NCBI RefSeq assembly: GCF_003023845.1
Contig: NZ_PYFT01000002.1
Location: forward strand, 1 to 64,000
Reading direction: 5' to 3'
DNA from: Adhaeribacter arboris
GTDB taxonomy: Bacteria; Bacteroidota; Bacteroidia; Cytophagales; Hymenobacteraceae
DNA: 64,000 bases
Below are positions 1-40,833 of the stretch, in pieces. The notes under the pieces were generated by a model. It saw only the letters and a program-made list of their open reading frames with translations, was not told the origin of the DNA and made no database searches. Position 1 is the stretch's first letter; each line of letters opens with the position of its first letter. The translations under genes were made by a program, and so were the position numbers.

Positions 1-123
1 AGTGATTTTGTAGGAGTAGTATACCAATCGTATGACAAAGCTGGCAAATGGAAAGCTAAATTAGTCCGAGAATTGAAAACAGCAGGTTTCAAAATTCCCA
101 CTAAATTTTCTGATAGAATTTAA
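1..123 (+). CDS. C-terminal end of a possible TIR-like nucleotide-binding protein (partial)
   Basis: An open frame enters from the left edge and stops at TAA 121-123, giving 40 residues. The stretch VVYQSYDKAGKWKAKLVREL followed by KTAGFKI resembles, from memory, the C-terminal end of predicted nucleotide-binding proteins with a TIR-like domain (Cap12 type), which often end in a 'GxWKxxLAxELKAAGF' segment. Such proteins are NAD-degrading effectors in some defence systems. The catalytic part lies outside the window, so this is a weak family guess. The defence-like setting (DUF3800, toxin-antitoxin, restriction remnants) fits but does not prove it. Confidence 0.4.
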   Translation, partial: SDFVGVVYQSYDKAGKWKAKLVRELKTAGFKIPTKFSDRI

Positions 124-331
124 ATACATATACCACTAGTTTAAGCTTCTAAGCACTGATAAGTATAAAGCTTTAAAGTATTTTACAAATCTACGACGTT
201 CGTTATTGGTAGGTGAAATTGTTCTTGTCCCATAATCGCGAATGAATAAACGAGCTTTACAGAGGCAGGAAATTCTATGGTTTCTTTCAGCTAATAGACT
301 GAGAGGCTTTAATATAAAGTAGTAGTAAAAC

Positions 332-362
332 TTGTATTTTTAATATACGTACACTACTTTTG
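332..362 (+). promoter_or_regulatory. Bacteroidetes-type promoter of a small RNA
   Basis: TTG at 332-334 and TACTTTTG (TAnnTTTG) at 355-362 are separated by exactly 20 bases, the usual Bacteroidetes sigma-ABfr arrangement. Transcription would start about 5-7 bases after 362, at the first base pairs of the hairpin that begins at 367. Confidence 0.65.
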
Positions 363-366
363 TAAT

Positions 367-434
367 GCTCTGGTACCCGAACACCTAAGTTCCACTTAGG
401 AAGCTGACGTAGGGATATCAGAGCTTATTTTTTT
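367..434 (+). ncRNA. short structured RNA ending in a U-tract, convergent with the DUF3800 gene
   Basis: The outer stem pairs GCTCTG at 367-372 with CAGAGC at 419-424. It continues with CCC at 376-378 against GGG at 412-414. An inner hairpin is CCTAAG 384-389, loop TTCCA, CTTAGG 395-400. A T-rich run follows at 425-434. A matched promoter lies directly upstream, so the whole unit is about 65 nt. It has no coding capacity. It sits just past the 3' end of a DUF3800 gene on the opposite strand. Several 'DUF3800' RNA motifs near such genes have been reported from comparative genomics (Weinberg et al. 2017). Membership in that group is inferred. Confidence 0.6.
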
Positions 435-1258
435 TATTCCCTTTAAACATAGTCTCATCTATTTCATAATCTCTACTTATAAATCTCCAATGCCTGTAGG
501 GACCATTCCAGGTATCACTATCAGAATCTCTTCCTGTTGAAATCCCAATATTAAATCTGGGTTTAATTTGGCAGATGCGATGTAGATGTGTTTATATAAT
601 TTTTCCTTTGCAATAGTTCTTTTTCCTCTTCTATGTTTCCCGGAGGTATCTCTTTATGTTTATCATTTAAACGAAAAACCATTGCGCCCAATAAAATGTC
701 CAGACATTGCATTATTACATTTCTTAGAATCAACTTCAGAGATATAATCTCTCTTAATTATGATATTTTTTTCTTTAAAAGAAGGCGTATCCTGAAGCTG
801 ATGTACATAATTCTTAAAAATATCACACTTCTCCTTAGTCTCTGGAAGAAGATCAAAATAAAGCCTTAAGTAGATTGGGCCATCTTTATCGTTGCAATAT
901 TGCAATCCAAAAGAATGTTTTATTAATTGATAATAGAGAATAAAGAATTCGTCTTCTTTGTGTTGATCTGTTAACCCAACTGGGAATAACCATTTTGGGT
1001 GAATAAGATCCGGATCTTGACTTTATTTTTTACAATAAGGTCAAAGAACTTATCCATTACGGCTAGGTATTTACTTAAATAATTTTCAGTGACTTTTTGC
1101 CATTTTAGCTCGTTGAAAAGATTATTCTCCTGGAACACCATCCTAAGAGTATGTTCAATATCTTCTTTATCTGGACCCTTAACTAAAGCAGCTCCATAAA
1201 AGTTTGAAAAATGCTTTCCTTTCTTATCTGATTCATCACAATAAATATGATACTCCAT
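418..1258 (-). pseudogene. DUF3800 domain protein, broken by frameshifts
   Basis: Starts at ATG 1258 with MEYHIYCDESDKKGKHF, the typical DUF3800 N-terminus (acidic YxDES motif, RNase H-like fold by family knowledge). The frame is lost near 975. It resumes at 905-710 (YCNDKDGPIYLRLYFDLLPE), shifts near 705 to CLDILLGAMVFRLNDKHKEI, and shifts again near 600 to FNIGISTGRDSDSDTWNGPY, ending with TGA at 418-420. The fragments are collinear and together make a full-length protein of about 280 residues. DUF3800 proteins are of unclear function and are often found in accessory regions. Whether the breaks are real decay or homopolymer sequence errors cannot be told from the sequence alone. Confidence 0.7.
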
Positions 1259-21736: not shown

Positions 21737-24385
21737 ATGAAGCCTCAATCTTTCCGACAACCAATGCTTCCCTCCGGCCCTACTTGGCCGCGCCTGGCTC
21801 AGCCCAGGCTATTGTTGCTGCTCTTATTCCTCTGCCTACCGCTCACCAGTCTATGGGCCCAGCCCGCGATTGCCTGGGATAAAACCTTCGGCGGCAGTAG
21901 TAGTGATAATCTTCGATCCCTGCAGCATACCCGTGATGGGGGATATATTCTGGGTGGCAGGTCCAGGTCCGAAATGGGTGGCGATAAAACCGAAGCGGGC
22001 ATAGGCGACATGGATTACTGGGTGGTGAAGTTAAAGGCCGATGGCACTAAAGAATGGGATAAAACCATTGGCAGCAGTGGATTTGATGATCTTCGATCCC
22101 TGCAGCAGACGAGTGACGGCGGCTATATTCTGGGCGGTATTTCCTTTTCCGGGCCTAGCGGCGATAAAACCGAAGTTTCGAAAGGTAACTATGATTACTG
22201 GGTGGTGAAGCTAAAGGCCGATGGCACCATTGCCTGGGATAAAACCATTGGCGGCAGTGGATTTGATGATTTTCGATCCCTGCAACAGACGAGTGACGGC
22301 GGCTATATTCTGGGCGGCAGTTCCGATTCCGAGCCTAGCGGCGATAAAACCCAAGCTTCGAAAGGCTCCGCAGATTACTGGGTGGTGAAGTTAAAGGCCG
22401 ATGGCACTAAAGAATGGGATAAAACCATTGGCAGCAGTGGATTTGATGATTTTCGATCCCTGCAGCAGACGAGTGACGGCGGCTATATTCTGGGCGGTAT
22501 TTCCTTTTCCAGGCCTAGCGGCGATAAAACCGAAGTTTCGAAAGGTAACTATGATTACTGGGTGGTGAAGCTAAAGGCCGATGGCACCATTGCCTGGGAT
22601 AAAACCATCGGCGGCAGTGGATTTGATGGATTAGAATCTCTACAACAGACGAGTGATGGCGGCTATATTCTGGGCGGCAGGTCCTCTTCCGAGGCTAGTG
22701 GCGATAAAACCGAAGTTTCGAAAGGTAACTATGATTACTGGGTGGTGAAGCTAAAAGCCGATGGCACTAAAGAATGGGATAAAACCATTGGCAGCAGTGG
22801 ATTTGATGATTTTCGATCCCTGCAACAGACGAGTGACGGCGGCTATATTCTGGGCGGCAGTTCCGATTCCGAGCCTAGCGGCGATAAAACCCAAGCTTCG
22901 AAAGGTAACTATGATTACTGGGTAGTGAAGCTAAAAGCCGATGGCACCAAAGAATGGGATAAAACCATCGGCGGCAGTGATGAAGATATTTTATTTGACC
23001 TGCAGCAGACGAGTGACGGCGGCTATATTCTGGGCGGCAGTTCCTCTTCCGAGGCTAGTGGCGATAAAACCCAAGCTTCGAAAGGCAGCGAGGATTACTG
23101 GGTAGTAAAGCTGACGAGCAAAACTCCGGCCCTTACCAGCATCAGTGCGGTTTCTACCATTGGCGGCCAAGTCACGCTCACCGGCCAGAATCTGAGCGCT
23201 GTTACTGCTGTAAAGGTAGGTAACAGCACTTACTCCAATTTAGAAATTAATAGCGCCGGTACCCAAATCCGCTTTAACTTACCCACCGGCTGTGGCCAAA
23301 ACCTGAAAGTAGTGGCCCTGGCCGGCACCGTGGAAAGCAACGCGCTTTCTTTCTCGTACACCAACCAAACCCCAGAACTAAGTGCCATCATCGTCTCCGC
23401 CAATCCACTGGCCACCAACTCAACCCTCACGGCCAACACCACGGTAAAAGACGAGAATCTAAGCTCGGCCGTTTGGAACTGGGGCGATGGAAGTACTTCT
23501 CCGGCTACTCTTAAAAGTAGCACCATCAGCGGCAGCCATAAATATACCAAAGCCGGCACCTATTCGCCTGTTCTTACCGTCACCGATGCCTGTGGTCAAA
23601 TTACTTCGGCTACGTACGAGTACGTAGTGGTTTACGAGTCGGGGGCAATCACCGGTGCCGGGGGCTTTACCTCACCCAAACAGGCTTATAAAGCGGATAC
23701 TAAGCTCACCGGAGCCGCCGTATTTGGCTTGTTTGCCCGCTTTAAGAAAGGCACTAGTACGCCGGAAGGCAGTACCTTGTTTGCCTTTAAAGCCGGTAAA
23801 GTAAAACTAGCTTTTTGCAGTACTGTTTACGAAACCCTCACCATTTCGGGTACCAAAGCGCGCTACACGGGTAAAGGTAAAATCAATGGCCAAGGCAATT
23901 ACGGCTTCTTAGTTTCATTGATTGATGGCCGTCCGGATAAGTTCCGCATCAAAATCTGGAATAAAGACAAAAAGAACCAGGTAGTCTACGATAACAACCT
24001 GAGCAACACGGCGGATGCGGCGGACCCAGTTACAACCATTGTAGGCTTTATTATGATTCAAACCAGCAAAGCTGCCGTGGCCCGGATGAGCTTGCCCGGC
24101 GTAGAAGTAACCCCAGAAGAGAAAACCGCACCTACTTTCCGCAACTACCCCAATCCGTTCTCGGAGAAGACTACCCTGGAGTTTACGTTTGATGAAGATG
24201 AGGAATATACTTTAGCAATCTATGATCTAGCGGGCAAGTTGGTAAGCCAACTGCCAAATGGCAAGGCTGAGGCGGGTAAGTTAAACCAGGTAGAATGGCC
24301 AGCCGCTCAGCACCCCACCGGCGTGTACCTGGCCCGGCTGAGTACGGGTAAAGCGGTGCAACATCTGAAGTTAGTGATTCAGTAA
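21737..24385 (+). CDS. T9SS-secreted surface protein with seven 60-residue repeats
   Basis: 882 residues from ATG 21737 (MKPQSFRQPM, signal peptide ending SLWAQ). An earlier in-frame ATG at 21686 gives an unlikely leader. Seven tandem repeats (about 47-458), each with 'WDKTIGGSGFDD', 'SLQQTSDGGYILGG' and 'DYWVVKLKADGT', are probably blades of a propeller. Then come an IPT/TIG-like domain (about 465-545), a PKD domain (WNWGDGST; GSHKYTKAGTYSPVLTVTDA), a conserved unnamed module (TGAGGFTSPKQAYKADTKL) shared with the two other T9SS proteins here, and a T9SS type A C-terminal signal (NYPNPFSEKTTLEF; PTGVYLARL). It would be displayed at or released from the outer membrane, controlled by the adjacent HTCC. 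Confidence 0.85.
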   Translation: MKPQSFRQPMLPSGPTWPRLAQPRLLLLLLFLCLPLTSLWAQPAIAWDKTFGGSSSDNLRSLQHTRDGGYILGGRSRSEMGGDKTEAGIGDMDYWVVKLKADGTKEWDKTIGSSGFDDLRSLQQTSDGGYILGGISFSGPSGDKTEVSKGNYDYWVVKLKADGTIAWDKTIGGSGFDDFRSLQQTSDGGYILGGSSDSEPSGDKTQASKGSADYWVVKLKADGTKEWDKTIGSSGFDDFRSLQQTSDGGYILGGISFSRPSGDKTEVSKGNYDYWVVKLKADGTIAWDKTIGGSGFDGLESLQQTSDGGYILGGRSSSEASGDKTEVSKGNYDYWVVKLKADGTKEWDKTIGSSGFDDFRSLQQTSDGGYILGGSSDSEPSGDKTQASKGNYDYWVVKLKADGTKEWDKTIGGSDEDILFDLQQTSDGGYILGGSSSSEASGDKTQASKGSEDYWVVKLTSKTPALTSISAVSTIGGQVTLTGQNLSAVTAVKVGNSTYSNLEINSAGTQIRFNLPTGCGQNLKVVALAGTVESNALSFSYTNQTPELSAIIVSANPLATNSTLTANTTVKDENLSSAVWNWGDGSTSPATLKSSTISGSHKYTKAGTYSPVLTVTDACGQITSATYEYVVVYESGAITGAGGFTSPKQAYKADTKLTGAAVFGLFARFKKGTSTPEGSTLFAFKAGKVKLAFCSTVYETLTISGTKARYTGKGKINGQGNYGFLVSLIDGRPDKFRIKIWNKDKKNQVVYDNNLSNTADAADPVTTIVGFIMIQTSKAAVARMSLPGVEVTPEEKTAPTFRNYPNPFSEKTTLEFTFDEDEEYTLAIYDLAGKLVSQLPNGKAEAGKLNQVEWPAAQHPTGVYLARLSTGKAVQHLKLVIQ
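21875..23112 (+). repeat. seven tandem 180-bp coding repeats
   Basis: Units of exactly 180 bp, several nearly identical at the DNA level (compare 22081-22260 with 22441-22620). Units with 'GSSGFDD' and 'GGSGFDD' starts largely alternate, which suggests 360-bp double units arose by recombination. Copy number may vary between strains. Confidence 0.85.
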
Positions 24386-40666: not shown

Positions 40667-40833
40667 TTTGTTTAACTTATTTTATTTGATCTTGCCTACT
40701 CTAGTAAAGGTTTTCGGCTTCCCCTTTTATTCTTTTCTATTTTTAGTAGGATCCTGACGGTTGCGGCAGAAGCTTGCCGCAAATGGTAGCCAGTACCAGG
40801 AAATAAACTTTAAATTAGTAAGAATAAGCCCGC

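Follow-up and report, generated by a model that had tools for sequence, protein, structure and literature searches.

The stretch analyzed here, 64,000 nucleotides of contig NZ_PYFT01000002.1 of Adhaeribacter arboris (hereafter the window), carries near its start a compact unit consisting of a Bacteroidota-type promoter, a structured RNA of the Rfam family DUF3800-VIII (RF03075) and a U-tract, which converges with a DUF3800 gene on the opposite strand (Table 1). Comparative analysis revealed that this RNA is linked to one DUF3800 subfamily with a C-terminal extension, of which it is probably the dedicated partner, every locus found from the protein side being in agreement, and that copies of the RNA without the gene occur chiefly in phages. 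The first-pass annotation, made from the sequence alone, had described a TTG-N20-TAnnTTTG promoter and an RNA of about 65 nt whose first bases pair with its last and which ends in a U-tract; all of this was recovered, the outer stem pairing GCTCTG with CAGAGC, except that the inner hairpin has 7 bp instead of the 6 bp described. It had also placed the RNA just past the end of the DUF3800 gene, and here the convergent arrangement stands, but the gene end overlaps the 3′ end of the RNA by ~10 bp.

Table 1. Features at the start of the window and the evidence or detail belonging to each.
Feature	Position	Strand	Basis or remark
Bacteroidota-type promoter	332..362	+	TTG 332-334, spacer 20 bp, TACTTTTG 355-362; full TTG/TAnnTTTG consensus match
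DUF3800-VIII RNA (RF03075), 64 nt	364..427	+	Rfam model, R1 model, fold, family covariation
Outer stem of the RNA	367-372/419-424	+	
Inner stem of the RNA	376-378/412-414	+	
Hairpin of the RNA	384-390/394-400	+	
U-tract (T8), intrinsic-terminator-like 3′ end after the outer stem	428..435	+	sequence
DUF3800 gene (product RNase HII-like by prediction) with a broken frame in this copy	418..1258	-	subfamily-profile fragments
Tail of CAP12/Pycsar-type TIR gene (neighbor, outside the unit)	1..123	+	full gene L008:4151-4936

The promoter motif alone is not rare, with four TTG/TAnnTTTG matches in the window against a Markov-model mean of 3.84 per 64 kb (both strands), and its weight therefore comes from its position, ending 1 bp before the RNA. 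Upstream of 28 distinct DUF3800-paired RNAs, promoter scores were significant against shuffles (p<0.05) in eight cases, with a mean of 0.78 compared to 0.64. The fold energy of the RNA is -24.3 kcal/mol, compared to a mean of -13.7 for shuffled sequences (z -3.42; 1/200 shuffles equally good); since the opposite strand folds equally well (z -3.85), the fold alone is uninformative on the strand.

The first-pass annotation had suggested that the RNA might belong to the DUF3800-linked RNA families as a new member or a variant, to be checked by a covariance-model search against the Rfam motifs. Such a search of window positions 200-600 (401 nt) with cmscan matched the whole RF03075 model at 36.3 bits (E 3.9e-5), below the gathering score of 40.2 bits, and a twin of the RNA in the same genome (C2:181176-181240) lies above this cut-off with 42.9 bits. 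Membership thus stood and the idea of a new family did not: judged by its sequence, the window RNA is an ordinary member of RF03075, sharing the sequence core, structure, length and DUF3800 neighborhood without essential difference, apart from being one base shorter, probably by a read error. We aligned 25 RF03075 matches (24 distinct, the twin included) as alignment A1, from which the covariance model R1 was derived; R1 gives 53.4 bits to the window RNA and 60.0 bits to the twin, itself a row of that alignment. Among the 24 distinct sequences, 90.8% of the cells of the 23-pair family structure are paired, and the covariation score reaches 0.639 compared to 0.258 for shuffled alignments (0/500 reach it) and at most 0.145 for slid partners. 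The structure is hence backed by covariation, and the covarying homologs beside DUF3800 genes that had been anticipated do exist. The GAA/GUUCCAC/GUA core and the covarying stems of RF03075 are present in A1, the unpaired GAA and GUA-type bases being invariant or nearly so and conserved across phyla, and the only variable unpaired stretch comprises ~7 nt (columns 43-49), extending to ~15 nt in L010-L012 (L and G handles denote loci and genomes).

The twin has a simple origin. Window positions 1-28787 align to the terminal 28,714 bases of the 209,526-bp contig C2 with no mismatch and 176 gap openings, from which the contig is most likely an untrimmed circular replicon of ~180.8 kb whose first 28.7 kb are an uncorrected second reading. 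Such an indel-rich second reading would explain why the window RNA is one base shorter than the twin and why the DUF3800 frame is broken there only; this break and the other frameshifts in 1-28787 are probably read errors. The presence of the RNA at two places of C2 could also be taken as two genuine genome copies, one of them decayed into a pseudogene with its RNA, and this is extremely unlikely in view of the gap-only alignment of the contig's first and last ~28.8 kb from end to end, by which a real second gene copy was rejected.

In the window, the DUF3800 gene is represented by four fragments matching the subfamily profile (971-1258, 663-1022, 563-757, and 418-591, minus strand), and its intact twin (G000:C2:181231-182076, equal to L008:5232-6077) encodes 281 amino acids. 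The twin protein matches Pfam PF12686 (E 1.1e-6), and this match stops at residue 195 of 281. Outside the Pfam stretch lies a C-terminal extension common to the RNA-linked proteins, rich in invariant basic and aromatic residues and marked by the motifs RGK[KR]TxAKE, PxFNxGxSTG, and HWxF. For the subfamily profile, which was constructed iteratively, four seed loci were excluded in which the longest open reading frame (ORF) was not the match; an earlier profile from other DUF3800 genes gave eight matches only and missed the window's own protein. Five acidic residues (D8, E9, E50, D136, and D188) are invariant in 14 subfamily sequences, and D8, E9, D136, and D188 would be the counterparts of the RNase HII DEDD set. 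An AlphaFold2 model from 10 aligned sequences (predicted local distance difference test score 79.6, predicted TM-score 0.81) is weak in its C-terminal part. With this model, the best solved structures in Foldseek are type 2 RNases H (RNase HII), with E 5.8e-4 at best, TM-scores of 0.46-0.55 and 11% identity, and in the viral library a DUF3800 protein from a phage ranks first (E 2.7e-6). Going by these matches, the subfamily protein would be a nuclease resembling RNase HII. An RNase H fold has likewise been predicted for Cas12a2-linked DUF3800 proteins in PMC10910872, and restated in PMC12669027. Moreover, the protein matches the PADLOC candidate defense family PDC-M04A (profile PDLC04353, E 1.9e-17). 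A second DUF3800 gene of another kind lies on the same replicon outside the window (C2:124631-125179; a 407-amino acid frame without the C-terminal motifs), and no R1 match was found in the 13 kb around it.

The link between RNA and gene was followed from the protein side in viral contigs using an alignment of 14 RNA-linked proteins as query, which matched where a single protein had found nothing. This search yielded 22 subfamily loci, and an RNA recognized by R1 lies beside the gene in all 22. Twenty-one of these RNAs are clear (E <=3.3e-5, within ~115 bp of the gene); at the remaining locus, L124, the contig ends inside the RNA, which scores 14.9 bits (E 0.22). Among the clear loci 18 are convergent, the RNA being on the same strand downstream of the gene in L128 and L137 and upstream in L133, so that the order varies and the presence of the RNA is constant. 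Seven of the 22 contigs were already known from RNA-first scans, six of them having supplied rows of the query alignment, and the other 15 are new, 14 with a clear RNA and one cut by the contig end; the R1 alignment holds none of the 22 contigs, with the qualification that the RNAs of L120 and L126 are letter-identical to R1 rows. L111 is likewise a paired locus. Across 395 genomes from the phylum to which the window belongs, the subfamily (E <=1e-20) was found in three, all three carrying the RNA, and these three proteins were themselves in the query alignment. Fourteen records of Riemerella phages carry a relative at ~50% identity, and in both of the two records examined the RNA follows the gene after 10 bp and scores 28.1 bits. 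The gene end overlaps the RNA by up to ~31 bp in several loci, an overlap that is variable and nil in other paired loci.

The control set comprised 30 loci with other DUF3800 genes, of which R1 (E up to 0.1) matched one, L073, at 756 bp from the gene, and none contained the C-terminal motifs. In the 19 of these loci scanned with Rfam models (E up to 0.01), L073 not being among them, no DUF3800-type RNA was found. The earlier suggestion that the RNA works with the DUF3800 protein is thus upheld as a genomic link by the 22 protein-first loci, and the two may function together.

Starting from the RNA, a pattern scan of the genome collection returned 22 stretches, 13 of which reach the RF03075 cut-off; among these are stretches from Paenibacillus, Clostridia, Natronincola, Synergistaceae, and Hymenobacter, and the unit is present in the Hymenobacter loci L037 and L049. 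A DUF3800 ORF stands beside the RNA in eight of the 13 (seven convergent, with L031 on the same strand), four have no DUF3800 gene in the examined stretch, and L043 is not assessable with its 80-bp flank. An RNA search in the window's class added two genomes, namely G744, where the RNA and a subfamily gene converge at a distance of 2 bp, and G579, where no subfamily gene was found in 3 kb. The distribution of the RNA is sporadic, with 1/59 genomes of close relatives (the source genome itself), 3/375 in the class and 7/296 in the phylum, the source genome counted in each, in scans that evaluate a small number of candidates in each genome and can overlook weak matches.

The RNA without the gene is found chiefly in phages. 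Fourteen viral loci (L016-L019, L021, L084, L086, L090-L093, L096, L098, and L099) exceed the RF03075 cut-off and have no DUF3800 gene in the examined stretch. From an examination of 4 of 12 matching phage records, the named phages with a lone RNA over the cut-off are SPbeta-like Goe14, SPbetaL6, Brevibacillus phage Jimmer2, and SPBc2. In SPBc2 (SPbeta, Bacillus subtilis) the RNA is located between yonK and yonN (NC_001884 59409-59474, 47.5 bits), the Goe14 record annotates it beside a skipping-rope RNA, and SPbetaL2 has a weak match below the Rfam cut-off (R1 18.4 bits, E 0.023). A pattern scan for the SPbeta-like form returned 15 contigs, all R1 matches, 14 of them without a DUF3800 gene in the examined stretch; the exception is the contig of L128 and L151, which bears the gene and whose RNA is 56/66 identical to the SPBc2 RNA. 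A blastn search of a Hymenobacter RNA against phages gave no match. Counting T in the last two and the next 10 bases, paired RNAs have a median of 8 and lone RNAs a median of 4 (28 and 26 distinct RNAs, p=0.0025), in a sample where identical RNAs were taken once and which was drawn without L028 (gene 756 bp away), the window copy (the L008 locus), L124 (cut), L043 (short flank), L042, L097, L110, L111, L145-L159, and the near-identical contigs L087, L089, L095, and L100. Because they have fewer terminal T, the lone RNAs may sit within longer transcripts. Skipping-rope and DUF3800-VIII RNAs share one gene-poor gap in the two phage contigs L140 (2681-2790 and 3987-4052) and L021 (1104-1198 and 1301-1366). 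No gene is annotated in the 1.7-kb yonK-yonN gap of SPBc2, possibly a long non-coding RNA island; a literature search for SPbeta yonK/yonN found no pertinent publication.

Given the identity of the RNA, its covarying structure, its gene link and its lone copies in phages, all of them observed, we tentatively favor, at somewhat less than an even chance, an inhibitor RNA that restrains a defense nuclease, with the phage copies acting as decoys. The RNA would be made from its own promoter and ended by its own stem and U-tract, and would form a complex with the DUF3800 protein, whose nuclease activity the folded RNA would block in the manner of an RNA antitoxin. If a phage infection disturbed this complex or the supply of RNA, the nuclease would be released and would halt the infection, and phages that carry the RNA and lack the gene would supply a decoy. 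We infer nuclease activity, RNA binding, inhibition, defense and decoy action from the predicted fold, the genomic context and the one-way occurrence pattern.

The most serious competitor, itself rather unlikely, is that the DUF3800 nuclease cannot act without the RNA, which would be its active cofactor in the form of a scaffold or of a positioning RNA in an effector complex. Such a role would suit an RNA that adjoins every subfamily gene examined, and for the DUF3800 accessories of Cas12a2 and VI-F loci a role with RNA has been suggested in PMC10910872 and PMC12669027. However, the RNA is mostly paired or strongly conserved, its variable unpaired ~7 nt being short for a guide, a role that was rejected on this ground, and the lone phage RNAs become harder to explain. 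An inhibitor is favored over an active cofactor because the subfamily gene was never seen without the RNA, while the RNA often occurs without the gene, and because phage mimics of antitoxins are known; pseudo-ToxI in phage PhiTE is a phage-borne mimic of an RNA antitoxin (PMC3475682). Action in trans on other targets, or antisense to the 3′ end of the DUF3800 mRNA, is improbable: the overlap with the gene end speaks for antisense, yet it varies between loci and is absent from some, and the core is conserved where no gene is present. Even less probable is that the RNA is mainly a bidirectional terminator between convergent genes, for which its position at the gene 3′ end, the U-tract and the folding of both strands would be natural. 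Against this, unpaired bases are conserved across phyla, the RNA precedes the gene in L031 and in L104/L133, it occurs away from DUF3800 genes in phages, it has its own promoter in the window, and other DUF3800 genes examined have no RNA adjoining.

Several observations weigh against the inhibitor and decoy interpretation. The one-way pattern is equally expected if the RNA is a needed cofactor and the lone RNAs are used otherwise, and at some RNA-alone loci the flank is short on one side (80 bp in L043, 142 bp in L045, and 41 bp in L084). Lone cellular RNAs lie near Schlafen-like, type IIG and weakly STAND-like genes, where a decoy role is not obvious. On the protein side, the RNase HII fold matches are weak, and a sequence search of the PDB with the DUF3800 protein found no match. 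A DUF3800 gene of unknown subfamily is listed as essential in Legionella (PMC7811196), which counts against a toxin since essentiality is unexpected of one. As to the link itself, two plasmid DUF3800 relatives (25-26% identity, 84-96% of the query aligned, C-terminal part diverged) have no RNA by R1, so that distant relatives do without it, and G180 has its RNA at a distance of 756 bp from a short DUF3800 gene, which comes with a protein partner. Changes on both sides occur in 17 of the 23 pairs of the family structure, a count reached by 28/500 shuffles. Finally, the locus order is unlike that of type III toxin-antitoxin operons, and repeats are absent.

Type III toxin-antitoxin systems such as ToxIN and AbiQ would, if the inhibitor reading is right, share with the present unit a protein and a structured RNA partner on mobile DNA, and phage RNA mimics such as pseudo-ToxI are known there. 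Their defining features, as given in PMC5086642, include a tandem-repeat antitoxin RNA, whereas here a single RNA unit is present and a tandem-repeat scan (minimum score 100) found no array at the locus. The RNA has its own promoter and is convergent here and in most relatives, in contrast to one operon with an upstream antitoxin and a terminator in between; the RNA was upstream on the same strand in L031 and in one contig encountered twice (L104/L133). The predicted fold is RNase HII-like instead of the ToxN endoribonuclease. Membership in type III was therefore rejected, as repeats, operon order and ToxN fold all differ. The PADLOC system PDC-M04 (DUF3800 protein M04A with M04B) resembles the unit by the M04A profile match and differs from it in the C-terminal extension and RNA partner of the subfamily; M04B had no match in the two RNA-side neighbors scanned with PADLOC, and a literature search on PDC-M04 found no pertinent publication. 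In L028:6099-8585, ThsB and an RF03075 RNA are found together with the genes for PDC-M04A and M04B. The TPR-DUF3800 accessories of Cas12a2/VI-F CRISPR loci resemble the present protein in a predicted RNase H fold near RNA-guided systems, according to the two papers cited above for that fold, and differ in that no effector protein or guide region was recognized here, Cas genes not having been searched for.

RF03075 is an already described RNA family, and in the parts of the literature mentioning DUF3800 that were accessible no function for it was found. The pairing with this subfamily, its RNase HII likeness and the decoy idea were not found in full-text literature that covered few subscription papers, which is thus weak evidence of absence. 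It is possible, and held more loosely than the inhibitor and decoy reading itself, that the unit represents a novel immune module of RNA-antitoxin type, in which an RNase HII-like DUF3800 nuclease is held inactive by a single compact RNA and phages, SPbeta included, carry the RNA alone as a decoy. If true, this would be an RNA-controlled defense which phages may counter with decoy RNAs. With the one-way pattern, the RNase HII-like prediction, the candidate-defense label and lone copies known from well-studied phages, this orphan family now poses a sharp question that is cheap to address in laboratory strains, namely whether the RNA silences the protein and whether a phage deprived of the RNA becomes sensitive.

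Around the locus, the window's replicon carries a CAP12/Pycsar-type TIR gene (PF10137, E 1.2e-33; PADLOC PDC-S35, E 3e-52) and resolvase genes. A 676-amino acid protein encoded beside the TIR gene (L008:1903-3930) matched neither Pfam nor PADLOC. The neighbors at other RNA loci include ThsB (L028), a STAND match that is weak and below the cut-off (L029), a type IIG enzyme (L046), and a Schlafen/AlbA gene (L026 and the near-identical L027). Integrase genes flank 5 of 34 paired loci, some sharing a contig, and the four checked by Pfam are all integrases. A conserved third gene was sought and rejected: among the 12 largest ORF clusters near the 34 loci, three of the four largest are antisense to DUF3800 and the other is the integrase, and apart from those four no cluster is common to more than three loci. 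Elsewhere in the window, the only RNA reported by Rfam at gathering level is a DUF805b RNA (RF02914) at 40693-40727 on the minus strand (47.7 bits), and positions 21869-23112 hold a tandem array of ~7 copies of a 180-bp (or 360-bp) unit.
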